In this document: piece after piece, positions 287 through 55,135 of the stretch
Position numbering within the stretch: the stretch's first letter is position 1
How the letters are laid out: each line of letters begins with the position of its first letter
Notes under the pieces: generated by a model
Told to the model about the DNA's origin: nothing
Database searches by the model: none
Seen by the model: only the letters and a program-made list of their open reading frames with translations
Made by a program: the position numbers and the translations under genes
Virus record (IMG/VR): IMGVR_UViG_3300021091_000091
Location: 1 to 55,329 of that record
DNA length: 55,329 nucleotides
Source: a virus
Strand: one strand, 5' to 3'

Positions 287-1312
287 TTATCCTTTGCGTT
301 TGATAGATGATAGTTGGTCTAAATCGTAATCAGCGTACATAGAACTAACTTTATTATCAAGTTCTATTTCTAATTTTTGCTTTTGTACATTTAACTTTTT
401 AAGGTTTTCAACATTTTGTTTTGCCTTATCAGTTCCTTTATTTAATTTATATTTTTCTAATTCAGATTGAATTGCCATCAATACTTTAGCTATATCATTT
501 TGAATACCAGCAACACCTCTAGCTTCATTTACTACTCCTTCGGGTACACAATTTGGAACTTGCTTACCACCTTTGTTTTTCATTCCAACTTGCTTATATC
601 CTTTCCAACAAGGACCTGCTTCACTAACTACTTCTTCTCTGTGTGGTGCTTTAATTCCGTAATCTTTCTTTATATCAGATAGTCTTTGTAGTATTCCTTT
701 TAGAGTAGTTTGAAACTTCATTTTTTGTTCTGGATTTTTTGTAGATGAAATTTTATCTCTAAGTTTTTTTACTCTATCGTTATATCTTTGTATTTTTTCA
801 CCTGTTGTTTTTGCAGGTTCTTCATTTATTTTTTTTATTTTTTTATACCAATTCATAGTTGATAAAGTAGCATCTATATTAGCTTTAAGGTTTTCTTTTT
901 CTTTAGGATTTTTAGATTTTGTTAGCATGTTTTGCAAACTCTTAATACTTCTTTGCAAATCTTTCATTAATTGTGCATCCATATCCTCATTAATACCTTC
1001 GTTTGAATCACCATATTCATGATAATTTCCAGATGCTTGAGAAATATAGTTTTCTGCTTTAGAAATATGGTCTTGAATCCAAGCTGGGATTTGTTTTTCA
1101 TCCTTACCCATTTTAGCTTTTAATTCAGTTGCCATTTTAATAATAGTATCTAACTGATTTTGTCCCATAGAAACTTCGTGGTCTTCACCTTCAGCTTCAT
1201 TTACAGGTTTAAATGCACTTGCGTATGGATTAGAATATACTTTACCATATTCAAATTTCTTACCACCCATAGTAAAAGAACCCTTTCCAGCTAAATCAGT
1301 TAAACGAATCAT
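287..1312 (-). CDS. Tagged coiled-coil head protein, scaffold (gp22-like) candidate
   Basis: 341 residues, lysine-rich and mostly helical. It starts MIRLTDLAGK, a variant of the tag shared by many proteins here but without the glutamate at the end. Possible prohead-protease sites of the form V/I-x-E are seen at residues 37-39 (VNE-A), 107-109 (INE-D), 162-164 (INE-E), 229-231 (VSE-A) and 261-263 (VNE-A). Two coiled-coil blocks (about 110-165 and 172-220) look like each other. A Cys-Trp segment near 235-256 (GPCWKGYKQVG, then PNCVPEG) is of a kind common in marine T4-like phage proteins. Position after gp21 fits T4 gp22, a core protein that gp21 cuts into small peptides. Function inferred from position and cleavage motifs. 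Confidence 0.6.
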   Translation of the reverse strand: MIRLTDLAGKGSFTMGGKKFEYGKVYSNPYASAFKPVNEAEGEDHEVSMGQNQLDTIIKMATELKAKMGKDEKQIPAWIQDHISKAENYISQASGNYHEYGDSNEGINEDMDAQLMKDLQRSIKSLQNMLTKSKNPKEKENLKANIDATLSTMNWYKKIKKINEEPAKTTGEKIQRYNDRVKKLRDKISSTKNPEQKMKFQTTLKGILQRLSDIKKDYGIKAPHREEVVSEAGPCWKGYKQVGMKNKGGKQVPNCVPEGVVNEARGVAGIQNDIAKVLMAIQSELEKYKLNKGTDKAKQNVENLKKLNVQKQKLEIELDNKVSSMYADYDLDQLSSIKRKG

Positions 1313-1315
1313 ATC

Positions 1316-1873
1316 TTATTTCTTTTTCATTGCAAGTCTTTCTCTCATTACATCGGTTGGGATATCAGAGATTTCATAGTAACGATTTAAGATGTGACCC
1401 ATATCTTCATATAAAGCGTGTAATCTTTCATCCATTGCTTTTGCTTCTACTGAGAACTTATCAAATTGTTGCCCCAATTTTTGCAATTCCAACATATTTC
1501 TTTTTACAGTTTGAGCATCAAACCAATCGTTAGCCTCTCTCAATGATAATTCTTTTGCAGCCTCAACGATTGCACCCAATGTTTCCGCAACTTCAGTCAT
1601 ATCTGAATTGCGCTTCATTTGGTCTTGGAAAGTATTATAAGTTGAAATGATTTCTAAGAAATGCTTTTTAACTTCTAAAGAAAGTTTTCTATCAGGTTGT
1701 TCTAAGTTCTCTTTAATAGAAAACTTACCGTCTTTAATCTTTATTTCATTAATTGCAGTCTTACGAATATCATTATATCCCTTAGCTACTTTAGTTACAT
1801 ACTTTGGTTCTTCAACTTTTAGTTTAAATCTATTGTTGTGAACGTATGTGTATAAATCAAAATTCTTATTCAT
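1316..1873 (-). CDS. Unknown helical protein in the head-assembly cluster
   Basis: 185 residues, acidic and basic in alternation, mainly helical after residue 60, with a basic KKK end. No recognisable enzyme motif, signal peptide or membrane segment. It lies one base from the end of the prohead-protease gene and three bases before the scaffold candidate, so it is expressed with head genes. A core or internal head protein is the simplest reading, but I do not recognise the family. Confidence 0.6.
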   Translation of the reverse strand: MNKNFDLYTYVHNNRFKLKVEEPKYVTKVAKGYNDIRKTAINEIKIKDGKFSIKENLEQPDRKLSLEVKKHFLEIISTYNTFQDQMKRNSDMTEVAETLGAIVEAAKELSLREANDWFDAQTVKRNMLELQKLGQQFDKFSVEAKAMDERLHALYEDMGHILNRYYEISDIPTDVMRERLAMKKK

Positions 1874-1874
1874 A

Positions 1875-2471
1875 TTACGCTATTTCAGTTATAATTTCTC
1901 TCATTAAATCCTGTGCCTTGCAGTATTCACCACATACATCAGTACCAATTTGTTTTAGTGGATTTACGGATTCATTCATTGGGACCATAAATGCACCATG
2001 TGTAGATGGATTTGAAACAAAATCCCAACCAATTAATTCAAAATCTTCTTGTACTTCAACTCTATTTCCGTTAAGTGGTTTTGTAGAACCCATACCTCTT
2101 GATGAAATACCTAATAAGATACCTGCTTTTAATAATTCTTTAAGAATATTACCAGAAGGAGTTCCTAAAATTTCTACAGTACCACATAGGTCATCACCAT
2201 CCCACCAAATTTCTTTTATATTATGAGATACATTTTTGAGGTTGATAACTGTAGAATCGGGATGGTCTAATTCACCCAATGCTCTACGCTCCTTTATAAA
2301 AGTTGAATGATATTTCTTAGCTTCTCTTTCTAAAATTGGTTTTGGATATACCCTTCCATTTTGGTTTTCCGCACCAGCTCTTTGTAGAACACCTTTGACA
2401 ATCGTTCTACCAACTTCATCTTCTTTTACCTTACCTTCAAATAAGTGTGTTTCTATTAAAAGAGACTTCAT
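1875..2471 (-). CDS. 21: Prohead core protease (gp21-like)
   Basis: 198 residues, matching the T4 gp21 family of serine proteases that mature the prohead. The conserved GELDHP segment gives the catalytic histidine (H70), and GISSRG near 121-126 gives the nucleophile serine (S123 or S124). The early NQNGRVYP motif is also typical. In T4 this enzyme sits inside the prohead and cuts scaffold, capsid and internal proteins after (L/I)-x-E. That specificity matters here because many proteins in the window carry an N-terminal tag ending in that motif. Gene order portal - small genes - protease - scaffold candidate follows T4. Confidence 0.9.
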   Translation of the reverse strand: MKSLLIETHLFEGKVKEDEVGRTIVKGVLQRAGAENQNGRVYPKPILEREAKKYHSTFIKERRALGELDHPDSTVINLKNVSHNIKEIWWDGDDLCGTVEILGTPSGNILKELLKAGILLGISSRGMGSTKPLNGNRVEVQEDFELIGWDFVSNPSTHGAFMVPMNESVNPLKQIGTDVCGEYCKAQDLMREIITEIA

Positions 2472-4638: not shown

Positions 4639-6414
4639 TTAAATTTTAGTTTCATCTAATAGGTTTTTTTCATCAAGCATACCTGATTTTTCGTTCAAAA
4701 ACTTCTTTTTTGATGAAATTCCATTTATATATTCACGTGCTAGTTTTTTAGCGTTTGTATTTAATCCTCTATCTTCTCTTTTTCTTTCTTTATGATAATC
4801 ATCATATCCCAATGGGTCTCTACCATATGGATGTTTATCTTTACCATAGGTATTTCCCTCTTTAGGTCTACCAACTCCTCTATTAAGTTCTATTTCAGTT
4901 TTTAATTTACTTATTTCTTCCTCAACATTTTGCTGTTGTGGTGGATTTGCTGGGTCCTGTCCTTGTTGTTCGATTGATGTCTGTCTAAAGCGGTCTTTAA
5001 GGTCTAATATCACTTTAGCTCTTTCAATATCAATTTCATCTTGTGATAATGAAAATACATTATTATAAGTCCAATCAGATGATAACATATTTAATGCTTT
5101 AACATCACTTGCCAATCTAACTTTTTCAGTCCACAAATTAACCTTTTCTTGCTCATATATTGTAGAAGCATTTGTTAAATTTAATTCAAAATTCGTCATT
5201 TCAGAATCTTCAATACCATTTGCTGCCAAATGAACAACTGCCATTTTAGCTAATTCACTTACAACTGTTCGTTGAATTCTTTCAATAGTTCTTGCAAAAC
5301 GTACATCTTCTGCAGCTAATGTTGCTTTACCATTTACATTTTCATCATAAGATAAGTAAGCTTTTGGTACTCTTAAAGCTGCAAATAATTTGTTTTTAAG
5401 ATAATCAATATCTTCGATTGCTGCATAATCTAATCCTTGCAAATTATCAATAGTTGTACCACTATCACTACCACGTACAGGAAGGAAGAAATCTTCAGTA
5501 AGATTTTGTATATTGTATTTTAAATTATAATCTCCTGTATTTTTATCAACAAATGGGGTTTTCTTCATTTTATTGATAATCTTCTGCATATAGTTATCCA
5601 CTTCTTGCGGTGGAATATTACCTATATCTATTTTAAATACTCTTTTTTCAGGTGCTCTCATAATACGATGGATTAACATCGCATCCTCCATAAGAGATAG
5701 TTGTTTCCAAATTCTTCTTGCTCCTTCAACCATTGATTTACCATATGGAAGAAAATTAGTATCTGATAACATACGAAAATGGGCCATCTCATATTGCTCA
5801 TATTCTTTTTTACCAAATCTGTCCAACTCTACCCTATATTTAACGTAATCAGGATTATTAGGGTCAGTACCCTCTAATCTCTCTACATTATAAGTTGAGT
5901 GAGGTGCTACATTAATAATACCTTTACCAGGAAGAATTTCTAATGCTACAAATGCATCACCATATTTTACCAAATTTCTAATCCAAGGCCACAAATTAAA
6001 TTCTATGTTCATAATATCATAGAATAAATTATGAAGCATTTCTCTTACATTCTCATTTGTGGATTTAATCTGAAGTACATCACCATATTCGTTTTTAGTT
6101 GTACTTTCATCTGCATATATATCAAGTGCTGAACCTATAATTGGGTCCATATCCATAGCATCATAATCTCTAAAAAGTTCTCTACGAACTTGATGGTATG
6201 CCATTGATTGTGCACCCTGATGGGTTTCGAAGTATGAACGTTGTAACTTTGTGTACCTATCTCTTAGGTTTACAAAATTTGTATTTGATTGTCTATCTTC
6301 AACATCTATAACTCTACGTTTACCATCTTTATCAACAGTTACTATTGCATTCGTTGAAAATAATTTTTTAAGTCTCCCAAAGAAACTTCTATCGTCTTGG
6401 AATTGTTCTGCCAT
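4639..6414 (-). CDS. 20: Portal vertex protein (gp20-like)
   Basis: 591 residues, a little longer than T4 gp20 (524). The N-terminal part (RRELFRDYDAMDMDPIIGSALDIYADESTT) followed by NVREMLHNLFYDIMN and the WPWIRNLVKYGDAFVALE stretch are characteristic of the T4-type portal. The portal forms the dodecameric ring at the head vertex, nucleates the prohead and is the channel for DNA packaging and ejection. The C-terminal 100 residues are charged and low in complexity (a QQ/PP stretch, then a KDKHPYGRDP segment). It lies downstream of the terminase gene with one small gene between; tail sheath and tube genes, which sit here in T4, are missing. Confidence 0.92.
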   Translation of the reverse strand: MAEQFQDDRSFFGRLKKLFSTNAIVTVDKDGKRRVIDVEDRQSNTNFVNLRDRYTKLQRSYFETHQGAQSMAYHQVRRELFRDYDAMDMDPIIGSALDIYADESTTKNEYGDVLQIKSTNENVREMLHNLFYDIMNIEFNLWPWIRNLVKYGDAFVALEILPGKGIINVAPHSTYNVERLEGTDPNNPDYVKYRVELDRFGKKEYEQYEMAHFRMLSDTNFLPYGKSMVEGARRIWKQLSLMEDAMLIHRIMRAPEKRVFKIDIGNIPPQEVDNYMQKIINKMKKTPFVDKNTGDYNLKYNIQNLTEDFFLPVRGSDSGTTIDNLQGLDYAAIEDIDYLKNKLFAALRVPKAYLSYDENVNGKATLAAEDVRFARTIERIQRTVVSELAKMAVVHLAANGIEDSEMTNFELNLTNASTIYEQEKVNLWTEKVRLASDVKALNMLSSDWTYNNVFSLSQDEIDIERAKVILDLKDRFRQTSIEQQGQDPANPPQQQNVEEEISKLKTEIELNRGVGRPKEGNTYGKDKHPYGRDPLGYDDYHKERKREDRGLNTNAKKLAREYINGISSKKKFLNEKSGMLDEKNLLDETKI

Positions 6415-6422
6415 AATTTATT

Positions 6423-6860
6423 TTACCATTTTCTACAAGACCAATATCTTGCTTTTGTTCTCGGACCAGGATTATCACAATTGTGTCTAGCTCTAAAGTT
6501 TGCTCTCCTGCCAGGGTTATTCTTTTTGATTTTCATACCCTTCTGACCGAAGTTTACTTTAATAACTTTACCAGTCTTAGGGTTTTTTACATATACCTTA
6601 AATTTCTTTACATCACCGGCTGTTGGTTTACCCAATTTTACCTCTCTACCTTGATACTCTGCTTCGTAAACACAACCACAATTAGCCTCATCTAATGAAG
6701 TTTGATAAGATTTAAGATATGCAATAAAATCATCCATATCTTCTTGCTCAACATCTAATTCATCATAATCATCTAATGGGTTATCTGCCGGTGTATCTCC
6801 TTTTGAGTATGCTTTATCAATATACTCATCTTCTTTTAGAATATTTGTTAGTTTAATCAT
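6423..6860 (-). CDS. Tagged internal/structural protein with cysteine-rich C-terminus
   Basis: 145 residues. It begins MIKLTNILKE-D, a clear copy of the capsid-targeting-like tag with an L-x-E cleavage motif, then an acidic region, then a second possible site SLDE-A near residue 58. The C-terminal half (GKVIKVNFGQKGMKIKKNN, then RARHNCDNPGPRTKARYWSC) belongs to a family I recognise as frequent in marine T4-like phages; its function is unknown. A good AGGAAA ribosome binding site precedes the start. Placement between terminase and portal, the tag and the upstream ATATTTAT element suggest a late protein packaged in the head. Confidence 0.7.
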   Translation of the reverse strand: MIKLTNILKEDEYIDKAYSKGDTPADNPLDDYDELDVEQEDMDDFIAYLKSYQTSLDEANCGCVYEAEYQGREVKLGKPTAGDVKKFKVYVKNPKTGKVIKVNFGQKGMKIKKNNPGRRANFRARHNCDNPGPRTKARYWSCRKW

Positions 6861-6889
6861 TTTGGTTTCCTTTTATTTTGACATATATC

Positions 6890-6907
6890 ATAAATATCAG
6901 TATTTAT
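6890..6907 (-). promoter_or_regulatory. ATATTTAT element inside an AT-rich inverted repeat
   Basis: ATAAATA and TATTTAT form a 7-bp inverted repeat with a four-base loop (6890-6907); the first arm includes the ATATTTAT octamer, 29 bases before the start at 6860. TTTG with N20 then TATATGTC overlaps it, a weaker host-promoter match. Confidence 0.4.
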
Positions 6908-6921
6908 CAAAACCCTACATT

Positions 6922-8523
6922 TTATAACCATTGCGATAGGTCTTCAATATCATTTCCAATTTTCATTTTCCAAGGATTATCATCTCTATTAGTAGGACCA
7001 TAAACTCCTTGATATTGAGTATTTGCAGAAATATTACCTAAAGCCGTTTTTGTAAGGTCAATACCTTCTTGTCTTAGACGAAGTGCAGTATCCCTAACCC
7101 ATAATCCAATACTAAATGCCATTGTCAAATCATCATTATAACTTTTCAAAGCTTCTGCTCTACCATTATGAAATATAAATGTAAACAATTCATCTATCAA
7201 CCGATTAGAACGAATTGTAACCGCTTTTTCTTTAAAATATTCATCTAATTTTGATATAATAAGTGGTCTTGTCTTAATCGTTGTAGAAAATCCAGCAACC
7301 ATCTGTCTTTCATCCGTACGGTATTTATTTTTCATTTGGTGCTCAACATCTACATATTTTAAATCTTTACTCATATAGAATAAGTTTTTATATTGCCTAT
7401 CTATACATTGCTGAATACATGCCCATCCAATATTTGAGTTTTCAACAACTAATAAAGCATCGTTATATTCAGTAGAAAGATTTACCAAAAAATTTCCAAA
7501 ATCTTTTGTATCAATTTTACCTCTATACTCAGCTACCTGAATTGCATTTATAATATCCATAACATGGCATGCCGAATAGTCAGAACCATCACCTCTTGCT
7601 ACGTCTGCTACAACCATATAAGAACCATTTGCTGTTGGATATTCCCATCTCCACAAATTGCCATCGAATCCAGTTTTTTCTATGGGGTCTTGACAATATG
7701 TTTCTTTATAAAACATTAATATATCAGGATCAATTACAGTATCACCAGAAGATACAAAATCACAATCACACTCTTGGGCTGCTTTTTTTGGACCTAATAA
7801 TTTTTCTTGTTCATCTCTCCAATTTTTGTCTCTCTCAGGATGAACTGTCCAATGTAGTTTTATAGTATTAAATGGATTAATTCCATCCTCTGCACCTAAC
7901 CAAGTTTTATGAAACCAATTACCTACTCCATTTGGTGTTGATAATGCTATACAACTACCTCCCGTTGCAAGTGTAGATTGAGCGGATACCCAAATATCAT
8001 CTATTTCTTCAATAAATGCTGCTTCATCAAATATTAATAGTGATAGTGCTTCCGAACGTCCAGCATCTGCTGATGAAGCAATGGCTTTAATTTGTGAACC
8101 ATTAGATAATCGTAAAGAGAGTTTATTATCTTCCATTGAGCCACCTTTTAACCAAGATGGAAGAAGGTCATGCATAACTCTTACTTTTGTTACTAAGTTT
8201 TTAGCAACATCTTGTTTTGTTGCAATTACTAATATATTAAAATCAGAATTAAACAACATACTCCAAAGTGAAAATCCTGCACAAAGAGTGGAAATACCTG
8301 TTTGGCGTGATTTAAGTATTATATTAAAACGATTATTTTTAAATTCAGTAAGGGTTTTTTCCTGAAATGGGTAAAGATGAAAAGGTATTTTACCTCTGAC
8401 TGGGTGCTGAATCATGCAATACTTTTTGGAAAAATGTATAGGGTCTGCAGCACACTTTTTATATTCTTCAGCTATAATCTCTTTTAAAGATTTTTTTTGT
8501 GTTATTCCTAAATTCTGAGCCAT
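6922..8523 (-). CDS. 17: Terminase large subunit (gp17-like)
   Basis: 533 residues. The packaging ATPase domain shows a Walker A-like SRQTGIST at about 72-79 and a Walker B LLIFDEAAF at 162-170 with D166 and E167. The C-terminal RNase H-like nuclease shows VVADVARGDGSDYSA around 304-318 with the metal-binding aspartates. This motor docks on the portal, translocates DNA into the prohead and cuts concatemers. It is shorter than T4 gp17 (610), lacking extra N-terminal sequence. Its start overlaps the stop of the 8523-9215 gene (TAATG), as for coupled terminase subunits. Confidence 0.93.
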   Translation of the reverse strand: MAQNLGITQKKSLKEIIAEEYKKCAADPIHFSKKYCMIQHPVRGKIPFHLYPFQEKTLTEFKNNRFNIILKSRQTGISTLCAGFSLWSMLFNSDFNILVIATKQDVAKNLVTKVRVMHDLLPSWLKGGSMEDNKLSLRLSNGSQIKAIASSADAGRSEALSLLIFDEAAFIEEIDDIWVSAQSTLATGGSCIALSTPNGVGNWFHKTWLGAEDGINPFNTIKLHWTVHPERDKNWRDEQEKLLGPKKAAQECDCDFVSSGDTVIDPDILMFYKETYCQDPIEKTGFDGNLWRWEYPTANGSYMVVADVARGDGSDYSACHVMDIINAIQVAEYRGKIDTKDFGNFLVNLSTEYNDALLVVENSNIGWACIQQCIDRQYKNLFYMSKDLKYVDVEHQMKNKYRTDERQMVAGFSTTIKTRPLIISKLDEYFKEKAVTIRSNRLIDELFTFIFHNGRAEALKSYNDDLTMAFSIGLWVRDTALRLRQEGIDLTKTALGNISANTQYQGVYGPTNRDDNPWKMKIGNDIEDLSQWL

Positions 8524-9266: not shown

Positions 9267-11801
9267 TTATTTTTCGAAGAAGATACCTAAAATCTGATTT
9301 AGCGGTGCAAATGCACCTGTCAGTTTATAAGTGTTTCCACCATATACAAATACAATACCCTCATTTGGTACAATCTTATCAAATCCGCCTAAAGCATTTA
9401 ATCTCTGCAATTCTAATTTAAGTTTTTGTACTTGCTTAGGGTCACCACTTGCTTTTACCTGTTGTATAGTAGATTCCAATCTACTAACCATTTGTCTTTT
9501 TGCAGCTTTTGGATTTGCTGTAAGAACTGAACTCATAAACGAAAGAACTTCTGCCCCAACCCCTAAAAATATTTCTTCAAACTTCATTAGATTTTGTTTT
9601 GATATTTTTTGCTGGTCTTGCTTATCAGTCTGCTCAGCCCAAGCTTTTAATTTAACATCTTGAATTGTATTAATACGGAATGATTTATCACCAAAAGCCC
9701 ATCTTTTAACTAATCCTATTTTTTCTTGTGTGTCTAATTTTTTTGCACTTTTTTCTACAAATTTTGTCCACCAAGCTTGATGATAATCCGCAACACCATC
9801 CGAATCTACTAAATTAAATTCAGACTGTAATTTAGAAATCATTGAAATATATTTTCCTTGTAACTTAGAAAGTTTTTCTGATTTTGGGAGTTTTTGCATT
9901 GGTGGTCCTTGTATTGTGTACTTAGATTGAACATGTCCATTTACCTGTTTAATCATACCAGCCAATATTTTAGCGGCTTGTTGATTTTCTCCAATTATAT
10001 TTCCTTCTTTATCATATTCAAATGTTCCGTGAAATACTAGCAAAGGTTGTCCATAAGGAATTACGTTTACGGATGTTGGGTAAATTACTTCTAAGTTCAT
10101 AAAACAACTACCACCTTTGAATATCATTTTACGTTGTGGCTCTGATAAGGCTGATATTGCTTTTGATAAATCCGTCATTGCGAAATTATATGCATCTGTC
10201 AATCCACCCCTTCCTCCAAACTTTTGTGCAACTTGCCCAATAGTCATTGCACCTTCACCTTTATTTTTGAGATGCGATTTATTTCTTGCAGCAACTAATC
10301 TGCCATTTACCCAACTAATCGCCAATGCCTGTCCATCAGTTTTTTCTCTTGCTAATTCTAAATCACCATTTAAAGCTCTTACTACAATTTGTTTAAGGTC
10401 ACCAAATGTTAATCCCATTTCAATATCAAATGGGTGTGCCATATGACCGTATGCACCACCTTCTAATAAAAGAGATTCATCAATAGGTTCATATTTTTCA
10501 CTATCTTCTTTATCTAATTTGGATTTTAATTTCTTTACATCTTTTGGATTTGGTGCTCCATTAATATATCCATTCGGTAAACTTAAACCAACACCGGCTC
10601 CACCTGGCAATCCCATTTCATCCAACAAAGATTGTTCAAGTTCATCAATAATTTCGTTTATTTCTTCTTTTGATATTATTGTAGGTTTTTGATTTTTAGG
10701 TAGTTCCCAAAATCTTTTAGGTTTTTCTAAAGGAGTTTCTCTTTTCACTTCTTGCCAATCTTCTACGGTATGGGGGTCATCAGCTGGGTTAAGGGTACTT
10801 TGTAAAACATTTTGTACCTTATAATATGCTTTTCTAAATTGAGTTTCAGTATCTTTTGATTTACCCTTACCTCTCATAGCATCTGCTTTTGGTATAGCCA
10901 ATTGTGTATATCCACCTTGTTTATACCAATTTTCAGGTCTATTTTTGCCAAGTATTCTTTTTTGCCCATCAGCAACAAATGATGTGTCCGGTTCTTCACC
11001 GGCTGTAAAACCTGGTCCCGATACTTCATTTAATTTATCTTTTTTTGGAATTCTAAATGTTACGGCTTTTTTACCATTAATTGTTGGCATTCCATATTCA
11101 TCTTTGCTAATAGATTTTACAACAACTTTTTTGTTCTTAAATCTTCCCATTAATATAGTATCACCAACTTTCACATTCAATTTAATTTCTTCATTAATAA
11201 AATCTTTGAGAGTTTTAAGTTTAAGCGTTATTAATTTAAATACCTTTTCATCAAACTTAGGATAAGCTTTTAAAAATCCTTTTTTTCTTTCAGCTTCAGA
11301 ACCCGCACTTAACCAATAACGAACATCAGTACCACTAATAGGATTTGGTTGTGCTGGGGATGCGTACACATAACCTCGTTCTAAATAAGGTTCGATAACT
11401 TTTCCTTTATATTGTACAAAATATTTTCCGCCTAAACGGTCTTCATCTTTTTCTCCAACTACAGTAATAAAACCAGTAGTATCTTCATCAAATTTATTTA
11501 ATATTTCTTCTGGCGCATAAGGGTTTCTAACATTAACAATTTTGTTTGGTGAAATACCAAACATTTTTGTCATAATTACTTTTTTTTCGTTAAAATTAAA
11601 TGGAGATTTTTTTGAATCGGTTATATTTGATGTTCCAATATAAACGTTATCTTTCCCAAACTTTTTGATTAAGTGTTCAAAAGTTGCGTAGTGACCCTTA
11701 TGAAATGGTTGAAAGCGGCCCGAATAGACAACAACCACTTTATCTATCTTTGCCGCTTCTTCCAATATTGTTTCAACTAAATATTTTGTTAATCCCTTCA
11801 T
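9267..11801 (-). CDS. Tagged NMN-adenylyltransferase-like / nucleic-acid-ligase-like fusion
   Basis: 844 residues. Start MKGLTKYLVETILEE-A is a long form of the capsid-targeting-like tag. Residues 20-190 are a nucleotidyltransferase of the NMN adenylyltransferase/cytidylyltransferase type: GRFQPFHKGH at 28-37 and an ISGTDVR motif near 155-161. A second tag-like segment LKTLKDFINE-E (about 196-205) leads to a small SH3-like stretch (210-250). Further cleavage-type motifs are LNE-V (257-260) and LLLE-G (445-449). Residues 450-844 look like the ligase superfamily: KTDG at 487-490 (motif I lysine), R506, MNLEVIYP (motif III), EGIVF (motif IV) and a reduced YKL (motif V). Substrate unknown; DNA nick or RNA ligation possible. 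An ATATTTAT element precedes it. The processing idea is inference. Confidence 0.7.
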   Translation of the reverse strand: MKGLTKYLVETILEEAAKIDKVVVVYSGRFQPFHKGHYATFEHLIKKFGKDNVYIGTSNITDSKKSPFNFNEKKVIMTKMFGISPNKIVNVRNPYAPEEILNKFDEDTTGFITVVGEKDEDRLGGKYFVQYKGKVIEPYLERGYVYASPAQPNPISGTDVRYWLSAGSEAERKKGFLKAYPKFDEKVFKLITLKLKTLKDFINEEIKLNVKVGDTILMGRFKNKKVVVKSISKDEYGMPTINGKKAVTFRIPKKDKLNEVSGPGFTAGEEPDTSFVADGQKRILGKNRPENWYKQGGYTQLAIPKADAMRGKGKSKDTETQFRKAYYKVQNVLQSTLNPADDPHTVEDWQEVKRETPLEKPKRFWELPKNQKPTIISKEEINEIIDELEQSLLDEMGLPGGAGVGLSLPNGYINGAPNPKDVKKLKSKLDKEDSEKYEPIDESLLLEGGAYGHMAHPFDIEMGLTFGDLKQIVVRALNGDLELAREKTDGQALAISWVNGRLVAARNKSHLKNKGEGAMTIGQVAQKFGGRGGLTDAYNFAMTDLSKAISALSEPQRKMIFKGGSCFMNLEVIYPTSVNVIPYGQPLLVFHGTFEYDKEGNIIGENQQAAKILAGMIKQVNGHVQSKYTIQGPPMQKLPKSEKLSKLQGKYISMISKLQSEFNLVDSDGVADYHQAWWTKFVEKSAKKLDTQEKIGLVKRWAFGDKSFRINTIQDVKLKAWAEQTDKQDQQKISKQNLMKFEEIFLGVGAEVLSFMSSVLTANPKAAKRQMVSRLESTIQQVKASGDPKQVQKLKLELQRLNALGGFDKIVPNEGIVFVYGGNTYKLTGAFAPLNQILGIFFEK

Positions 11802-12283: not shown

Positions 12284-13030
12284 TTAATTTTCAAACACAG
12301 AAACACCTTTTTTTTGTACAACTTCTTTTGCGCAAAAGTTTGCCCAATTGATTGATTCTATTATATTTTTTGTTTCTAAGTATTTTGCAACAAATCCTGC
12401 TACAAAGGTATCACCGGCCCCACTTACATCTGCATTTTTAACCTTTTCAGTTTTTATAATTTTTCCTTTGTAAGCGGCACCACTACCATCTAAAGTTGTA
12501 ATTATTTTATCTTCCAACCATTTAGATTCTGATATTATATCATAATTATTTTGTGCTTCAAATCGGTTAAGTTTAATAAAGGTTATATCCTTACACCAAT
12601 CGCCTAAACGTTTTTTTGTATCTAATATTATTAAATTATGTAATCTAGAAATTTGTTGTATATCTTCTTCATTAAGAAACCCTTTACAATAATCTGATAT
12701 TATAATTGCATCATATTGTATGAAATCAGGTAAATCGTAAATATCAATTCGTTGAGTGCTATCATTTTCATCAACACGCAAATAAAGTTCATTTGTATCA
12801 TTATTTACATAACGAGTTTTTGTAATATTTCCTTTATCAGAAAAAATATCAACATTTAATCCCATAGCTGATAAATTATTTGCTACATTTCCAGCCATAC
12901 CATCTCCATAAATCTGTTTGAGTGGATTGAATACCGGCCCATTTCCTTCAGGAGATTTTCTTTTAGAAATTCCGTAGATGAAAATATCAGTGCATTGTTC
13001 TCCTATTACCAATATTTTATTTTTTTTCAT
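12284..13030 (-). CDS. hldA: HldE-type heptose 7-phosphate kinase (PfkB family)
   Basis: 248 residues, matching the kinase half of HldE, which makes heptose 1,7-bisphosphate in ADP-heptose synthesis. Evidence: an early VIGEQCTDIF strand, KSPEGNGPVF in place of the ISPEAPVPV substrate loop, GDGMAGNVANNLSAMG in place of PGGAANVA, TKTRYV with ELYLRVD (as in TKLRVL...LIRLD), and the PfkB end motif SGAGDTFVAG with the catalytic aspartate. It is about 70 residues shorter than the usual domain. It overlaps the next gene upstream by 14 bases, so the kinase and the adenylyltransferase are split but coupled. GmhA and GmhB are not in the window, so the substrate and the intermediate phosphatase would come from host or elsewhere. 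Confidence 0.8.
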   Translation of the reverse strand: MKKNKILVIGEQCTDIFIYGISKRKSPEGNGPVFNPLKQIYGDGMAGNVANNLSAMGLNVDIFSDKGNITKTRYVNNDTNELYLRVDENDSTQRIDIYDLPDFIQYDAIIISDYCKGFLNEEDIQQISRLHNLIILDTKKRLGDWCKDITFIKLNRFEAQNNYDIISESKWLEDKIITTLDGSGAAYKGKIIKTEKVKNADVSGAGDTFVAGFVAKYLETKNIIESINWANFCAKEVVQKKGVSVFEN

Positions 13031-13409
13031 TTTTTAATATTTTTGATGTGCTCAACTCTTTTATTTTTTGAAAAAATTCAACTTTTGGTATGTATTCTAT
13101 TCCTATTATTTCGTGATATTCGTAATCATCACCTATAACCATAATATCGGGTTCCCATTCTCTAATTCTATCTATTAATTCTTGATTTGTACTAAATGTT
13201 ACAACCGAATCTACATACCGAATAGATTTCATAAAATGTATTCTATCAGCTATACAATTAAAAGGTCTATCCTTGCCTTTTTTATCTTTTACTCTTTCAT
13301 CTGTATCTAATCCAACTCTGACTATACCCAAATTAGAAGCATGTTCTAATAAAAGAATATGGCCGATATGTAGAATATCAAAAGTACCATTTACCCAAAT
13401 TTTTTTCAT
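13017..13409 (-). CDS. rfaE2: HldE-type heptose 1-phosphate adenylyltransferase
   Basis: 130 residues, matching the C-terminal domain of HldE, which joins ATP and D-glycero-beta-D-manno-heptose 1-phosphate to form ADP-heptose. It shows NGTFDILHIGHILLLEHA (the HxGH nucleotide-binding motif), DTDERVKDKKGKDRPFN (compare NSDASTKRLKGDSRPVN), and VIGDDYEYHEIIG (compare VKGGDYKPEEIAG). Glycerol-3-phosphate cytidylyltransferase is a related alternative, but the KGKDRPFN and GDDY segments and the adjacent kinase favour the heptose enzyme. Its start overlaps the heptosyltransferase stop (TAATG), giving a coupled operon. Confidence 0.82.
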   Translation of the reverse strand: MKKIWVNGTFDILHIGHILLLEHASNLGIVRVGLDTDERVKDKKGKDRPFNCIADRIHFMKSIRYVDSVVTFSTNQELIDRIREWEPDIMVIGDDYEYHEIIGIEYIPKVEFFQKIKELSTSKILKNEKK

Positions 13410-14566
13410 TATAAAAACTTTTCTAATTCTTTTATTACCATTTCAGATGTTATTGATTTAGTACACTCAAATTGTCTATCAGTTCCTTTGTGGTCTGGAC
13501 ACCAATTCCAATCACCGGCATCCAAACGTAATCTATTAAAACATCCTTCACATTTACCCTTCGGTGCTCCAATACGAATACAATTCTCCATTTCAGCCCA
13601 TTTATAGGAAAATCCACTTATTAAAACTGTTGGTACATCTAATGCCCAACTTAACCAACTTAATCCACTACCAATACCAATGAATGCTTTTGATTTTAGC
13701 ATTTCATCCATAACCAATTCTATTGGACCGTTTGGATGTTGTACTATATTAGATGGTAATTGATTACCCATATAATTTTCACCTTCTTTAGATAGTAATT
13801 TTACTATATATCCCTTATTATTTAGCCAATCAACTACATCTTGCCATCCCGTTTGGTTATTCCAAAACTTAGATTGTGCCGTACCGTGAATACCAATACA
13901 CACCTGTTTATATCCTAATTCTATATTTGGATTTCTTTGTTTTATTTTTGGTTTTATTTCTTTAAATCGTAATCCCAAAATATCAGAACACATTTTTTGC
14001 ATTGTCTGGCATTTAGGGTCTATTGGATTTTTGTAAATATTAATTGTGTTATCTTCATTGTAGAATAACCCAATTGAATACATAGCATATAAATTTTCAA
14101 CTACTATACCAGGACTTACAAATTCAATATTTGGATATCTTTCTTCAAATAATGAATTCATAAAAGTTGATACAATCATTTTTGCATTGTGAAGTTTTCC
14201 AAATTCTTCAACATATGGTAACCACGCCAAGCTATCACCCAAAGCTTTTGAATCTAATGCAACATAAACTCTTTTATCTTTTGCATCAAATAAATGCTGA
14301 TACCAAAGTTTGCCGTTTTCATATATTTCAATTTTCCAATCAACAAAATATTCTACATTACATCGTGTCCACATATTATTACTAATTTCAGAATTGTACA
14401 TTACAAATCCTGTTTTATTATTAATAAATTTTACTTGATACTTTGATGCTTTTGCCCCTTTAATTTCTACACTTGCTCCTTTAACAAAATGTACAAATAC
14501 TTTATTATCAATATTTGCTTTATTGTTTAAATTTTTTATTAAATTATTGTATATCATTAACTCCAA
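13409..14566 (-). CDS. TibC-like protein O-heptosyltransferase
   Basis: 385 residues, resembling the bacterial autotransporter heptosyltransferase family (TibC, Aah; strand-loop-strand O-heptosyltransferases), which move heptose from ADP-heptose onto Ser residues of surface adhesins. An N-terminal beta-rich domain (1-95) precedes the GT-B fold. ALDSKALGDSLAWLPYVEEF at 103-122 gives the LGD...LP motif with D111, the expected catalytic base. GIGSGLSWLSWAL and PTVLISGF match the donor-binding half. Near the end four cysteines (C339, C342, C356, C368) reproduce the metal-finger pattern known for TibC. It sits with ADP-heptose synthesis genes and close to a giant Ser/Thr-rich fibre, its most likely acceptor. 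Modification of the host surface is the main alternative. Confidence 0.8.
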   Translation of the reverse strand: MELMIYNNLIKNLNNKANIDNKVFVHFVKGASVEIKGAKASKYQVKFINNKTGFVMYNSEISNNMWTRCNVEYFVDWKIEIYENGKLWYQHLFDAKDKRVYVALDSKALGDSLAWLPYVEEFGKLHNAKMIVSTFMNSLFEERYPNIEFVSPGIVVENLYAMYSIGLFYNEDNTINIYKNPIDPKCQTMQKMCSDILGLRFKEIKPKIKQRNPNIELGYKQVCIGIHGTAQSKFWNNQTGWQDVVDWLNNKGYIVKLLSKEGENYMGNQLPSNIVQHPNGPIELVMDEMLKSKAFIGIGSGLSWLSWALDVPTVLISGFSYKWAEMENCIRIGAPKGKCEGCFNRLRLDAGDWNWCPDHKGTDRQFECTKSITSEMVIKELEKFL

Positions 14567-50408: not shown

Positions 50409-51221
50409 TTATTTTGTGATTATCTCAATCTTAATCTTTGGTTGATAATCTTTTGGTAATTTATTATTTATACCCTTAAATACTTTTACTTTATCCTTAA
50501 AGTAAGTTATTTCTATTATTTTGTCTGTCAAATTCATTACAGTTTGGGAAGATGTAGACATTTCGGATGTATCTCTTTTCATATTAAGTTGGGGTCTATT
50601 TGGAAAAAATTCTTTTCTCATTGCTGCTGCTATTTCTTTCCAATCTTCCACTGTATTAACTGATTTTTCAGCCGATATTTTTCTCATTTTTGATGACAAA
50701 TATTTTTCTCCACTTGTATATCCTGCATCAGTAAAAAGATGACCATGATTTGTACGAACAACAGGTGATTTGGAATTTTGTAATTGTACATCCGGCTTAT
50801 GCTTTGATGTAGTTTCAATACTAACCATATGTTTTGGAGATGATACAAATGTATGCCCTTTAAGAGATAATCCACTCTTACCCTTATAAGATATTGTAGC
50901 TCTGATTGCATCTATGAGTGTTGGTTGTTTTAAAATGTTTCTCATCTTGTCACCATCTGGCCCAGGCTTACCCCCTTTTTTAACTATCTTAGCTTCTGCT
51001 TCATCGTGCCCCACTAATAAAGCAGAGTTTACCACTCCAATTCCATACTCATTAAGACCCTCACTCCAATCAGTAATTAAATCATGTAAATAAGCAACTT
51101 CCACACCATCTATAATAGTATGTACAATTTCAAGTTCTGGATTATACATTCTATCCCTATTTTTAGCAAGAATAAATTTATCACCAACTTCTTTAGATAC
51201 AATAATACATTCGTTTATCAT
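50409..51221 (-). CDS. Ntn-hydrolase (peptidase C45/acyltransferase-like)
   Basis: 270 residues. MINECIIVSK...FILAKNRDRMYNPE has the layout of N-terminal-nucleophile hydrolases of the C45/penicillin acyltransferase/choloylglycine type: Cys5 as nucleophile and the N21-R22-D23 motif. RTNHGHLF near 157-164 fits the substrate-binding region. These enzymes become active when the residues before the Cys are removed. Here the four residues before it are M-I-N-E, and I-N-E is also a gp21-type cleavage motif. The start overlaps the 51218-51763 stop. Substrate unknown: an amide of the host envelope, a signal molecule or a protein are possibilities. Confidence 0.7.
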   Translation of the reverse strand: MINECIIVSKEVGDKFILAKNRDRMYNPELEIVHTIIDGVEVAYLHDLITDWSEGLNEYGIGVVNSALLVGHDEAEAKIVKKGGKPGPDGDKMRNILKQPTLIDAIRATISYKGKSGLSLKGHTFVSSPKHMVSIETTSKHKPDVQLQNSKSPVVRTNHGHLFTDAGYTSGEKYLSSKMRKISAEKSVNTVEDWKEIAAAMRKEFFPNRPQLNMKRDTSEMSTSSQTVMNLTDKIIEITYFKDKVKVFKGINNKLPKDYQPKIKIEIITK

Positions 51222-51763
51222 CTTACAGTACTACTAAATGATTTTTTTAAATCATATGTTTGTGAAAGGTCTATAACCTGTAATCTTAGTTTTGTCAAAC
51301 CATGCTTTTGTTTAAGAATATCCATTACTTTTTTAGCTTCTGGCATATTCTTAGCTTTTGTATATGCTACAACTTCATCCTTTTCGCCAGGCGGAACACC
51401 CCATATAATAAACTCTTTTTCTTCTTTTAGGAATGATTTTAATGTTATTGTTTGTTCACTTTTTTTAATACTATTTATAAAACTTCTATATACAGCAGCT
51501 GCTGAAACTTTACCTGCTGCTTTAGCCCTCTGTTCCATAGCAATTGCTGCCTGTATTTTGTGAGCGTGTGGTTTTCCACTATTTTTTATTTTATTTACGC
51601 TACTTTTTGCATCTTTAACCGTAGCGAACTTTAATCCATGAATTGTCCCTTTGGGATTTTCATCAGTATATAAATCACTATGATTTGAACTACCCTTATG
51701 TTGACCTGATTTTCGTGGTATTCTATTATTTGCTTCCTTTAATAATAATTTTAAACTTATCAT
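51218..51763 (-). CDS. Tagged protein with second internal tag (two-part)
   Basis: 181 residues. Starts MISLKLLLKE-A, a capsid-targeting-like tag with L-x-E cleavage. Residues 10-100 contain GTIHGLKFATVKDA and HKIQAAIAMEQRAKAAGKVSAAAVYRSF, a family I recognise from other phages without known function. At about 101-112 a second tag-like TITLKSFLKE-E appears, followed by an unrelated 65-residue domain (FIIWGVPPGEKDEVVAYTK). It looks like two packaged proteins fused end to end, with a possible cut between. ATGA overlap with the gene upstream. Confidence 0.65.
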   Translation of the reverse strand: MISLKLLLKEANNRIPRKSGQHKGSSNHSDLYTDENPKGTIHGLKFATVKDAKSSVNKIKNSGKPHAHKIQAAIAMEQRAKAAGKVSAAAVYRSFINSIKKSEQTITLKSFLKEEKEFIIWGVPPGEKDEVVAYTKAKNMPEAKKVMDILKQKHGLTKLRLQVIDLSQTYDLKKSFSSTVR

Positions 51764-52335
51764 ATACTTGGTAATCCTTGTGCTTTTGCAAATTTATTTA
51801 TAAACCTTTTTGTTGTTCCATCATTTAAAACATTTACCCATTCTTTAATGGCCTGTCTTGTTATTACATTTTTCCACTGCTTATAATTTGATACCATTCC
51901 AAAATTTGAACCTGGCGTTGGTATATCTCTACTATCTTTTGTTTTATCAGGATATAATTCTGAAAATACTTTATCTAATTTTTCTTGTGCTATTTTACTT
52001 TCTAACCATCTACTAACCAAACTCCTTTCGTATTCTAATTTAGAAAAATCTATCTTTTGTTTTTCACCATTATTTCTAGCTTTCTCAATTTGCTTTTCAA
52101 ACTCTTTTAATTTCTTATCATTTTTAAGAGTAAAATAAACATACTTATTAAAATTTCCATCATCTAAAGAATCCAACCATTTAATATGTGGATTTCCAAC
52201 AAACTTTTTATATTCTGATTTATTTCTGAATCCTCTAACCACCATTGAAATTGTCCACATTATAAATTGAGCTGCAGCAAATATTAAAAGTTCTTGTAAA
52301 AAGCCTTCGTTCAATATTTTTTTTAATCTAATCAT
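51760..52335 (-). CDS. Tagged protein with membrane helix
   Basis: 191 residues. MIRLKKILNE-G is a tag with an L-N-E cleavage motif. One hydrophobic segment follows (about 15-35, LLIFAAAQFIMWTISMVV), then a basic, Lys-rich helical domain to the end. If the tag is cut, the new N-terminus would be the membrane helix. A packaged membrane protein delivered with DNA is possible. Family not recognised. ATGA overlaps on both sides. Confidence 0.6.
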   Translation of the reverse strand: MIRLKKILNEGFLQELLIFAAAQFIMWTISMVVRGFRNKSEYKKFVGNPHIKWLDSLDDGNFNKYVYFTLKNDKKLKEFEKQIEKARNNGEKQKIDFSKLEYERSLVSRWLESKIAQEKLDKVFSELYPDKTKDSRDIPTPGSNFGMVSNYKQWKNVITRQAIKEWVNVLNDGTTKRFINKFAKAQGLPSI

Positions 52336-53741
52336 TTTAATTCGGCGTTTTTTAATTCTCTTGCTAAATCATGCATAATTCTTTTTGTAAATTGAACTGA
52401 ATCTTTACCTAAAAATGATATACCTGAAATGTTTGTAATATCTTTATGTCCACCTGATTGTTTTACAATTAAATCGTATGCTGAAATGGTTATTGTTTCT
52501 AATTTTTGTTTTTCAGGCTCAGTAAGATTATTATAATGCTTTTTGGAAATTGCATCTATTAAATCTTTTTTATCATCATTAGGTATTCCTTTTGCTTCTT
52601 TACCAAATAATGCGGATAGGTCTTTTAGTGTGAATCCAAAAGAACGTTCAGAACCTAAAGTAAGTATATCAGATTCCATTTTCTTTTTTATATCTCTAAA
52701 TGTAAGTTGTTTACTGTCTAAATAACTTTTATATTTTTTTAATATCTTCATCGCTATATCACCCAAATTAAATTGATTTACACCCTTTTTAAATGGATTT
52801 TTTGAAGCTTGTACTAATCCCATAGGATATCCTAAAATCATATAATGAGCATCAGGATTCGTTTTAAATGGAATATATCTATCATACCCACCACCTCTAA
52901 GATTACCCATACCATATTGAACAATTACATTACCAACTTTTCCATAATTTCCATTTTCCAAGTTTTCAATATCTCTATTACGAGATAAATCCCTTTGCAT
53001 TTTTTCAGGTCTTTGAGAATGAATATAAACTGCTTGTGGAATATCTAAATCTTCTGGTTTTAATCCTGCTGCTTTAGCGTTTTTCATAGTAACATTAAAA
53101 ATACTAATCAAAGATGGATTTGCTTCCATTACTATTTTTTCTAAAAATCTTGGTTGATTTTTAAATGCTAATAACACTTTATTTGCAACAAATCCCATAG
53201 CCACTCTATTTTTTGAAGATGATTTACTTCTATCATACTTAAAAGCTGTTGCTATAAATTCATCTACATCAATTCCTTGTCTTGCAAAATCCGCTGAATC
53301 AACTGTTGAAATAATTTTTATATCTTCGTTTGGAAATATATCATTCGGTGAAAGTTCTTGAGAAATTGTTTCTACGTTTGATGGTTTCTTTTTAAAGCTA
53401 GATGCAGTTCCTCTTTCTACTCCACTTTGAGATTCATGATGGTCAGTATGTATTGTTACACCTGGTTTTCCGTGTGCAAAATCTACTAAAACAACCATAT
53501 GACCTGGAGTTGGTTTTGGTGCAGAATATTCTCTACCACCATATTGTATGTGCTCAGCATTTACAACTTTTATACCATACCTTTCTAAGTATGCTTTCAT
53601 TCCGATTGCACTTGTTACTCCATCCAAGTCCATATGAAAGTATAAATCAGCCTTATTATTTTCTTTTGCTAATCTTCGTATATCTCTAATTCCGGATTCG
53701 GTGAGTAATACCTCATTTAACAAATTAGAAAGCTTAATCAT
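52332..53741 (-). CDS. Tagged DHH-family phosphoesterase
   Basis: 469 residues. MIKLSNLLNE-V and a further LLTE-S at 12-15 are tag-type cleavage sites. The DHH motifs follow in order: FHMDLDGVTSA (35-45; D38, D40), LVDFAHG (85-91; D87), DHHES (100-104) and a VDSADFARQG segment near 150. DHH enzymes include RecJ, nanoRNases and cyclic di-AMP phosphodiesterases. The second domain has RGGGYDRYIPF instead of the usual GGGH...A of DHHA1, so the substrate cannot be named. If packaged, it would act very early in infection, for example on RNA, DNA ends or signalling nucleotides. Confidence 0.72.
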   Translation of the reverse strand: MIKLSNLLNEVLLTESGIRDIRRLAKENNKADLYFHMDLDGVTSAIGMKAYLERYGIKVVNAEHIQYGGREYSAPKPTPGHMVVLVDFAHGKPGVTIHTDHHESQSGVERGTASSFKKKPSNVETISQELSPNDIFPNEDIKIISTVDSADFARQGIDVDEFIATAFKYDRSKSSSKNRVAMGFVANKVLLAFKNQPRFLEKIVMEANPSLISIFNVTMKNAKAAGLKPEDLDIPQAVYIHSQRPEKMQRDLSRNRDIENLENGNYGKVGNVIVQYGMGNLRGGGYDRYIPFKTNPDAHYMILGYPMGLVQASKNPFKKGVNQFNLGDIAMKILKKYKSYLDSKQLTFRDIKKKMESDILTLGSERSFGFTLKDLSALFGKEAKGIPNDDKKDLIDAISKKHYNNLTEPEKQKLETITISAYDLIVKQSGGHKDITNISGISFLGKDSVQFTKRIMHDLARELKNAELK

Positions 53742-54202
53742 TATCCCTTACATTTCCTCCAGCTACCGCCTTTTCCTTTGTAATTTTTTGCAGCCCATCC
53801 ATTTGCGTACGCTGATGGATAAACATCAAACTTCTTTTTAGCTGCTGCTTTAGATGCTGCCCATTTACCCGGATCGGTTGGACAATTCTTTTCTAAGAAT
53901 AATTCCATTTTTTGTTCTACAGTTAATACTTTTTCCATATTTTCGTTTTTCTTTTTCTTTTTACCAGCACAATGTGCTTTTTGTGAGAATCCTTTTGGGT
54001 TACTACAATTTATAGATTTTTTATATTTTTGTGACCAACCTTCTTTTACTTTTTTTGGTTTTTCTTTTTTAAATGGATTTGGATTTTCTTTACTACCTCT
54101 ATAATCATAAGCAAATTCATGCTTTTCTGGATTTACTTTTTTGACATCGTATTTCTTTCCAGTTTCTCTATTTTTAACAAATATATCAGATAGACGTATC
54201 AT
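53741..54202 (-). CDS. Tagged basic protein, DUF-type phage family
   Basis: 153 residues, strongly basic. It starts MIRLSDIFVKN: same opening as the tag but no glutamate, so cleavage may be lost or shifted. KSINCSNPKGFSQKAHCAGKKKKK and DPGKWAASKAAAKKKFDVYPS are patterns I know from many T4-like and marine phages, in proteins of unknown function. The basic character suits binding to packaged DNA. TAATG overlap with the gene upstream. Confidence 0.65.
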   Translation of the reverse strand: MIRLSDIFVKNRETGKKYDVKKVNPEKHEFAYDYRGSKENPNPFKKEKPKKVKEGWSQKYKKSINCSNPKGFSQKAHCAGKKKKKNENMEKVLTVEQKMELFLEKNCPTDPGKWAASKAAAKKKFDVYPSAYANGWAAKNYKGKGGSWRKCKG

Positions 54203-54549
54203 TATTCTCCAGTTTTTTCTTTTATAATTAACTCACCTAAAACTTCTAATAATCCAACTATTTTTTGAAATTGTACTGCATCAGGTTTTTCACTTGCCAT
54301 CAATTTATGCAAAGATTCCATATATTGATTATAAGATGAAGTTGCTTTTTCTAAATTAAACTTACCTTCTGCTGCTTCTTTATAGTGTGGAAGTTTTACT
54401 ACAAAGTGTTCATATGTAAGAATTGCAGGTCCACCTTTAGCTTTTGCATCAGATGCTATCTTAGTTGCACCGTCCAATCTCTTATTTGCAAAATCAGATA
54501 TTTTCATATCCTCAAATTCTTCTTTTAATATTTCAGATAATTTAATCAT
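54202..54549 (-). CDS. Tagged small helical protein
   Basis: 115 residues. MIKLSEILKE-E tag with an L-K-E motif, then soluble helices (SSYNQYMESLHKLMASE). No catalytic motif or membrane segment. TAATG overlap with the gene upstream. A packaged internal head protein is the most likely role; family not recognised. Confidence 0.65.
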   Translation of the reverse strand: MIKLSEILKEEFEDMKISDFANKRLDGATKIASDAKAKGGPAILTYEHFVVKLPHYKEAAEGKFNLEKATSSYNQYMESLHKLMASEKPDAVQFQKIVGLLEVLGELIIKEKTGE

Positions 54550-54863
54550 TATGCACCTGTTTTTACAAATGTTGGTTTTTGACCTTTTGATTTTTCACCA
54601 CCTTTCTTACTATCTCCTGCCTTAGATTGAGCTGCTCTTTTTCTTTTTACAAATGATGCTCTACCATCAGGCCCTAACTTAGCTGCTTTATCTTTTGATA
54701 AACATGCCGCATATGCCGAACCTTTTTTACTATCACCACACTTACCTACTTTCTTACCTTTGGAATCATATCTATCCCAACCACCTCCGGATGATGAACC
54801 ACCACCACCTTTACCAAACCATTTACGAAGGTCTTCTCCTATTATATCTCTTAGCAGTATCAT
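54549..54863 (-). CDS. Tagged Gly/Ser/Lys-rich protein
   Basis: 104 residues. Starts MILLRDIIGE-D, a tag variant ending in I-G-E. The body is disordered, rich in Gly, Ser and Lys (GGGGSSSGGGWDRYDSKGKK...), with two cysteines in KCGDSKKGSAYAACL. Similar short basic sequences occur in other T4-like phages. Likely DNA-binding internal protein. TAATG overlap with the gene upstream. Confidence 0.65.
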   Translation of the reverse strand: MILLRDIIGEDLRKWFGKGGGGSSSGGGWDRYDSKGKKVGKCGDSKKGSAYAACLSKDKAAKLGPDGRASFVKRKRAAQSKAGDSKKGGEKSKGQKPTFVKTGA

Positions 54864-55135
54864 TAGAATGCTATTGTTACGATTTCATTATCTATTTCCA
54901 CCCAACGAACTCTGAGTGATACTAATTTTTTCATATCATCGGCTTCAAGTCTATATCCGTTTCCCATTGTTTGTCTTGCTTCAATATCAACAATATATCC
55001 GTGAATACCTTGAAAAATTTGTGTATTTTCTCCACCAATTATTTTTTCAAAAGCCATTACTTGCTTTTTTCTTTGTGGGTCCAGTTGATTAAACTGAATT
55101 TCTTCCGCTTCGTTGAGTTGTGTAAGTCTAATCAT
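54863..55135 (-). CDS. Tagged small protein
   Basis: 90 residues. MIRLTQLNE-A is a short form of the tag, L-N-E then A, the best match to the T4 gp21 consensus. Then a small alpha/beta domain (IFQGIHGYIVDIEAR, VSLRVRWVEIDNEIVTIAF). First complete gene of the tagged operon in the window, nine bases past the stop of the partial gene at the edge. Family not recognised. Confidence 0.65.
   Translation of the reverse strand: MIRLTQLNEAEEIQFNQLDPQRKKQVMAFEKIIGGENTQIFQGIHGYIVDIEARQTMGNGYRLEADDMKKLVSLRVRWVEIDNEIVTIAF

Follow-up and report, generated by a model that had tools for sequence, protein, structure and literature searches.

Why do seven otherwise unrelated proteins encoded on one fragment of phage DNA begin with nearly the same ten residues? 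The fragment is the IMG/VR virus record IMGVR_UViG_3300021091_000091, a 55-kb sequence (55,329 nucleotides, 31% GC) from an uncultured aquatic T4-like phage, here called the window in its full length. We consider it about 85% probable that the recurrent start, MIKLxxLLxE (hereafter, the tag), is a propeptide that targets proteins to the prohead core and is removed by the prohead protease gp21, making it the equivalent of the capsid-targeting sequence (CTS) of phage T4.

Unrelated proteins share an N-terminal tag

All seven starts listed in a preliminary description of the window proved to be true gene starts, all on the minus strand. That description had placed the set at 51218-55135, a range that holds for the clustered tags but not for MIKLTNILKE, which falls outside it. 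Two imperfect copies that it had named, MIRLTDLAGK and MIRLSDIFVKN, were likewise found as gene starts. A further member, described as an 844-residue ligase fusion, does have an N-terminal nucleotidyltransferase and starts with MKGLTKYLVE, but neither Pfam nor PDB searches supported the "ligase" part. The copies are listed below with protein lengths in amino acids (aa); all are gene starts except the internal copy, and L numbers denote loci in our sample.

6831..6860, minus strand: MIKLTNILKE, on a 145-aa protein (6423-6860) between terminase and portal
51734..51763, minus strand: MISLKLLLKE, on a 181-aa protein (51218-51763); tagged homologues in L091 and L092
51422..51451, minus strand: internal copy TITLKSFLKE, residues 105-114 of the 51218-51763 product, read from the translation
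52306..52335, minus strand: MIRLKKILNE, on a 191-aa protein (51760-52335); orthologue in L100 with MIRLTNILLE
53712..53741, minus strand: MIKLSNLLNE, on a 469-aa DHH-like phosphoesterase (52332-53741)
54173..54202, minus strand: imperfect MIRLSDIFVKN, on a 153-aa protein (53741-54202)
54520..54549, minus strand: MIKLSEILKE, on a 115-aa protein (54202-54549)
54834..54863, minus strand: MILLRDIIGE, on a 104-aa basic, Gly-rich protein (54549-54863); homologue in L052 with MIRLIDLLDE
55109..55135, minus strand: nine-residue MIRLTQLNE, on a 90-aa protein (54863-55135)
1283..1312, minus strand: imperfect MIRLTDLAGK, without Glu10, on a 341-aa protein (287-1312)
11772..11801, minus strand: variant MKGLTKYLVE, on the 844-aa nucleotidyltransferase fusion (9267-11801; CTP_transf_like, E 1.9e-7)

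The pattern M-I-x-L-x-x-(L/I)-(L/I)-x-E, or its nine-residue variant, was present at 7 of the 48 gene starts in the window and at none of the 220 internal methionines in their products; on these counts a chance origin was rejected. Unsupervised pairing of the window's N-termini gave five pairs, versus none in five internal controls. Among the six perfect ten-residue tags, mean amino-acid identity fell from 0.53 to 0.07 over the following nine codons, in agreement with the earlier view that the bodies are unrelated and the codons differ. The 250 tagged genes in the sample had 227 DNA spellings for 136 peptides, with leucine codon use near background. These results indicate that selection acts at the protein level, as had been proposed.

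Orthologues of the 6423-6860 protein in L102, L013, L022 and L046 retain the tag. Relatives of the 54202-54549 protein were found in nine IMG/VR loci and in Flavobacterium phage immuto, and nearly all of their tags end in LLKE, LLRE or LLNE; orthologues of the 54863-55135 protein carry MIKLTQLNE (L100) and MIRLTQINE (L286), and a 72% identical orthologue of the DHH-like protein starts with MIRLTDILKQ. The starts of the 844-aa fusion's orthologues, MNELSNFLIE, MNRLAQFLIE, MNELSQFLVE and MNKLTKWLVE, keep L4, an aromatic residue at 7, a hydrophobic residue at 8 and E10, in an M-N-x-L-x-x-F-L-x-E register. Orthologues of the imperfectly tagged 287-1312 protein start with MISLGGLVSQ and MIKLGGLINQ, and a protein of L240 with a perfect MIKLKDLLKE continues with a segment that, by eye, is similar to the 287-1312 protein. 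In the same way, a tagged protein of L194, MIKLKDLLKEDEIVKNKKTGNVYVVK, has a following segment similar by eye to that of the 53741-54202 protein.

The second, in-register tag inside the 51218-51763 product suggests two cargo domains with a second cleavage site between them. In a protein of the 844-residue family from L076, a segment resembling (by eye) the first of these domains directly follows the tag, so domains seem to be shuffled behind tags.

The tag ends at a putative gp21 cleavage site

To describe the anatomy of the tag, we counted residues in proteins selected by M-I-[KR]-L only, in two sets: 55 non-redundant proteins whose loci had been chosen independently of the tag, and 69 others. 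Position 7 was leucine or isoleucine in 91-93%, position 8 was mostly L, I or V, and Glu10 was present in 65% of the 55 and 80% of the 69; positions 5, 6 and 9 were variable, and there was no consensus from position 11 onward. Conservation that stops at position 10 is as expected of a propeptide cut after residue 10. In T4 IPIII, the first ten residues suffice for packaging, with residues 4 and 7 serving targeting and 8 and 10 processing (PMC9026906), and the constrained positions of the tag (4, 7, 8 and 10) coincide with these. Asp at position 10 in T4 leaves targeting and blocks processing (PMC9026906), so the two imperfect tags of the window might be targeted yet uncut.

The (L/I)-x-E cleavage consensus ends every copy except those on the 287-1312 and 53741-54202 proteins. 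The capsid protein of this clade has a conserved motif of the same form, LLDE|A or LISE|A, in place of T4 FLTE|A. Co-variation of tag and capsid site at P4 (F in T4-like references, L/I here) is suggestive; we did not use it as proof, because T4 gp24, which starts with MAKINELLRE|S and loses its first ten residues (PMC9958956), has LLRE.

The processing enzyme would be encoded in the window itself, where a gp21 homologue had been reported at 1875-2471 and is confirmed.

1875..2471, minus strand: gp21-like prohead protease, 198 aa, the putative processing enzyme (PF03420, E 1.8e-31; phrog_207, E 2e-52)
1316..1873, minus strand: core-protein candidate directly downstream of gp21, untagged in the window, starting MNKNFDLYTYVHNN...

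The protease matches the T4 gp21 structure PDB 5JBL (E 3.4e-28), and its N-terminus, MKSLLIE|T, is similar to MNEPQLLIE|T of T4 gp21. It belongs to peptidase S77 by profile match and by its GEL-x-H and SSRG-x-GS motifs, both conserved: GELDHP and ISSRGMGS align with GELNHP and VSSRGLGS of the T4 enzyme. Orthologues of the downstream protein start with MIKLKDLLKE, MKLTQLLKEN, MSKKIKLKDLLEEN or M.xFDIRKWxxLNES; the tag at this position is kept or swapped.

A T4-like pathway can be proposed from these features. While the head assembles, the ten-residue tag would dock its protein on the scaffolding core through residues 4 and 7. Once the shell had closed, gp21 would cleave the (L/I)-x-E site behind Glu10, with residues 8 and 10 involved, and the remainder would stay inside the head beside the DNA. 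Except for core parts, the tagged proteins would then exit with the DNA on infection.

The tag in related phages

Absence of the tag from homologues in related phages had been named as evidence that would count against a packaging signal; we found the tag present in relatives. Among 80 loci obtained by gp21-based retrieval, MIKLKDLLKE, MIRLKNLLKE, MISLKNLLNE and like starts precede unrelated proteins. In gp21-clade loci, 56 of 1186 genes had the strict tag pattern, versus 0 of 263 in random loci on contigs without gp21, and no gene of eight reference phages had it. The tagged proteins of relatives (264 distinct) formed 99 body clusters after tag removal, a count that spans all loci in the sample, part of them retrieved by the tag itself, and up to seven tagged genes were found per contig in this lineage.

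Back-translated MIKLK[DN]LL[KN]E matched at least 120 viral stretches, and a residue-permuted control matched none. Of 80 matches analysed, 75 had no upstream in-frame ATG; the matches gave 67 distinct proteins in 32 clusters. A scan of bacterial and archaeal genomes (257 Gb) with the same pattern gave six matches; only two of these start genes, and both lie on phage-like contigs, one of them with three consecutive tagged genes. L401 and L402, phage-like contigs from GTDB metagenome-assembled genomes (Flavobacteriaceae; Candidatus Nitrosopelagicus), carry several tagged genes each and are probably mis-binned. Microcystis phage Mel-JY01 encodes three paralogous tagged proteins, MIKLxSLxxE-IISDRVWHLT... 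(L007:10276-12718), ADP-ribosyltransferase-like by eye and with no Pfam match, and a further tagged protein starting MSLINVIIEA (L007:29976-30464).

Tagged proteins include many enzymes

Most tagged families are without annotation. Annotated ones include zeta-toxin-type kinase, NUDIX, HD, NT5C-like, ADP-ribosyltransferase-like, 2H phosphoesterase/Acb1-like and zincin-like proteins, a phage lysozyme with LysM, and the DHH-like protein of the window; several of these annotations are under family cut-offs and serve as leads only. The T4 core, too, contains gpAlt and internal proteins (PMC9958956). The DHH match itself (E 4e-4) is under the Pfam cut-off, and a PDB sequence search with this protein gave no meaningful match. 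The product of L277:1725-2894 is a tagged 2H phosphoesterase, over the cut-off for 2_5_RNA_ligase2 and with weak similarity to Acb1, a protein directed against the cyclic oligonucleotide-based antiphage signalling system (CBASS); it is a candidate packaged anti-CBASS protein. The commonest tagged family (46 members) lies immediately downstream of gp21, in the scaffold slot, and is more likely a core component than an injected effector.

The tagged proteins had been proposed to form a packaged, injected set. This is partly supported: the evidence for a T4-like targeting propeptide is strong but indirect, and some tagged proteins are probably core components. From their sequences we strongly infer that tagged proteins are packaged, and we infer docking and cleavage of the tag; injection, though plausible, and an early anti-host role of the tagged enzymes are more speculative.

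Further classes of tag

An unsupervised search for N-terminal 12-mers shared between non-homologous proteins recovered, as a positive control, MKTYQEFIAE (twice), MKTFKEFIKE and MKTFKEFTST in T4. It also recovered MKSFKQFLEE, MKSFSQFLTE and MKSLSQFIIE (MKSFxQFLxE) in P-SSM2, the tag of the window, and further tags from immuto and contig G004. Two of the latter were pursued beside the window tag (class 1), in loci L524-L639 and L404-L523 and in immuto (L002-L005). The class 2 tag, MxNFDLKKFLVENKLTxNSRxLxE|, has about 24 residues and ends in (L/I)-x-E; a scan with M..FDL[KR]KFLxENKLTxNS... matched at least 120 stretches, giving 96 proteins in 44 clusters. The class 3 tag has 20 residues, with conservation stopping at E20 and an (L/I)-x-E ending; a scan with MKKSELKQIIKEEIxxVLNE matched at least 120 stretches, giving 123 proteins in 93 clusters. 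Because the proteins of each class were fetched with the class pattern, conservation within the patterns is imposed; this does not apply to the (L)-x-E at positions 18-20 of class 3. The gp21 gene is present on 17 of 20 large contigs that carry a class 2 or class 3 tag. Among named phage records, the class 2 tag was found only in immuto isolates, and a 20-residue class 3 query gave no match at that sensitivity. Immuto (NC_055915), a cultured phage of Flavobacterium sp. LMO8, encodes tagged proteins of all three classes: class 1 at 24569-24994, 103366-103806 and 112261-112575, class 2 at 103806-104354, 1803-2318 and 118632-118931, and class 3 at 102294-102869, 102880-103359 and 113188-113946.

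Class 3 tags reach a density of six copies in 7.4 kb (L548), and class 2 tags four in 6.8 kb (L435). Two unrelated immuto proteins (L002:25061-25456 and L004:11675-12139) have a common 22-residue start, MKKQILSEQF(K/R)RMQ(F/K)LAGIITE, possibly a fourth class. We think it somewhat probable that aquatic T4-like phages, at least the lineages around immuto, use several interchangeable address tags with gp21-type sites to load well over 200 unrelated families into heads, as a readable delivery code.

Alternative explanations

Several observations weigh against the tag as a gp21-cleaved propeptide for core targeting. The strict pattern was absent from random loci of gp21-bearing contigs (0 of 129 genes), which makes the tag lineage-specific and not universal among gp21 phages. 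Contigs with the class 1 pattern are only moderately associated with gp21 (present on 24 of 48, versus 9 of 33 random contigs), because T4-like phages are common among large aquatic phage contigs anyway, and fragments and T4-like phages dominate both samples; most gp21-less class 1 contigs are fragments, and the random 16-mer control is weak, several of its matches coming from one T4-like family. The six-gene tagged cluster of the window adjoins tail genes, not head genes, and a tagged protein of L228 resembles a tail lysozyme. No cut is expected at the two window tags without Glu10, and the AlphaFold model of the DHH-like cargo is poor (pLDDT, the predicted local distance difference test, 42).

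The tag could instead mark scaffolding-core parts that gp21 trims or destroys in maturation, as an assembly signal with few or none of its bearers delivered to the host. The 46-member family in the scaffold slot fits this account, as do the several tagged proteins that are small and basic or of low complexity and the single cleavage consensus common to capsid protein, gp21 and scaffold. We consider it unlikely, since folded enzymes without an obvious part in the scaffold (NUDIX, zeta-type kinase, HD, ADP-ribosyltransferase-like, DHH-like) make up many of the bodies, and the cargo varies from phage to phage, as with T4 internal proteins. An amphipathic N-terminal helix for a membrane, the tail or a replication compartment, with an incidental (L/I)-x-E ending, is considerably less probable still. 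By its sequence the tag could form such a helix, and the position of the cluster beside tail genes and the lysozyme-like L228 protein would suit it, but a membrane helix needs no Glu precisely at 10 with conservation stopping there, two other tag classes likewise end in (L/I)-x-E, and the register is identical to that of the experimentally dissected T4 CTS. Hardly credible is a translation-initiation feature of the mRNA or a trace of recent duplication: the starts are AT-rich and several adjacent tagged genes of the window overlap by a few bases, yet the many DNA spellings, the near-background leucine codons, the lack of detectable similarity among bodies and the absence of matches to permuted codons of the same composition all speak against it. 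We therefore favour the gp21-cleaved targeting propeptide because of the T4 register, the sharp end at E10, the (L/I)-x-E site of the capsid protein and the presence of gp21, and because the tag is conserved across related phages and virtually absent from bacterial genomes.

Neighbouring genes

Together with gp21, a portal and a large terminase at 4639..8523 form a T4-like head module.

4639-6414, minus strand: gp20-like portal (phrog_213, E 4e-62)
6922-8523, minus strand: gp17-like large terminase (phrog_2, E 6e-46)

The portal is 47-49% identical to those of immuto and Mel-JY01. Between gp21 and the gene at 3149-3703, the protein encoded at 2473-3147 contains an internal class-3-like stretch, ITKDRLKELVKEVMIEE; a homologue in L019 begins at this stretch, which suggests a gene fusion in the head-gene region. 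Between the head and tail genes, sugar-kinase-like, cytidylyltransferase-like and glycosyltransferase-like genes (by eye) run in series at 12284-14566, perhaps a surface-sugar or nucleotide-sugar cassette.

Comparison with known systems

The open-access literature searched, on the T4 CTS peptide, cyanophage and marine-phage CTS and Mel-JY01, does not describe these tags. T4 provides the precedent for the concept; the sequence, lineage, scale and extra tag classes do not appear in the papers searched. Injected internal proteins of T4 include the anti-defence proteins IPI and IPIII (PMC9391042); those of uncultured phages are out of reach of virion proteomics, which needs cultures. With a sequence tag that marks packaged proteins, packaged cargo would become a database query, listable from DNA alone. 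Candidate first-contact effectors flagged in this way include kinases, ADP-ribosyltransferase-like, NUDIX, HD, 2H/Acb1-like and DHH-like proteins and many families of unknown function, and new head-targeting peptides would be available for protein packaging beyond the T4 system.

Like the T4 CTS of IPI, IPII and IPIII, the tag has ten residues, is hydrophobic at 4, 7 and 8, has Glu at 10, precedes unrelated cargo (7 of 48 window genes; 99 body clusters in relatives) and occurs in a genome that encodes gp21 (S77); one unsupervised search recovered both. The likeness does not extend to sequence identity: MIKLxxLLxE and MKTYQEFIAE have only M1 and E10 in common, and we therefore regard the tag as equivalent to the CTS in function but not homologous to it in sequence. 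It also differs from the T4 CTS in its up to seven tagged genes per contig, about 100 cargo clusters in the sample and enzyme-rich cargo, and in belonging to a distant, mostly uncultured lineage in which packaging is predicted. The propeptide of T4 gp24 is similar in its ten residues and (L)LxE ending, and gp24* lacks the first ten residues (PMC9958956); unlike the cargo of the tag, gp24 is a capsid vertex protein. In the giant Salmonella phage SPN3US, propeptides of ejection proteins are likewise processed by the prohead protease and have a proposed targeting role (PMC5694885), but they are mostly longer than 100 residues and protein-specific, whereas the tag described here is short and shared.

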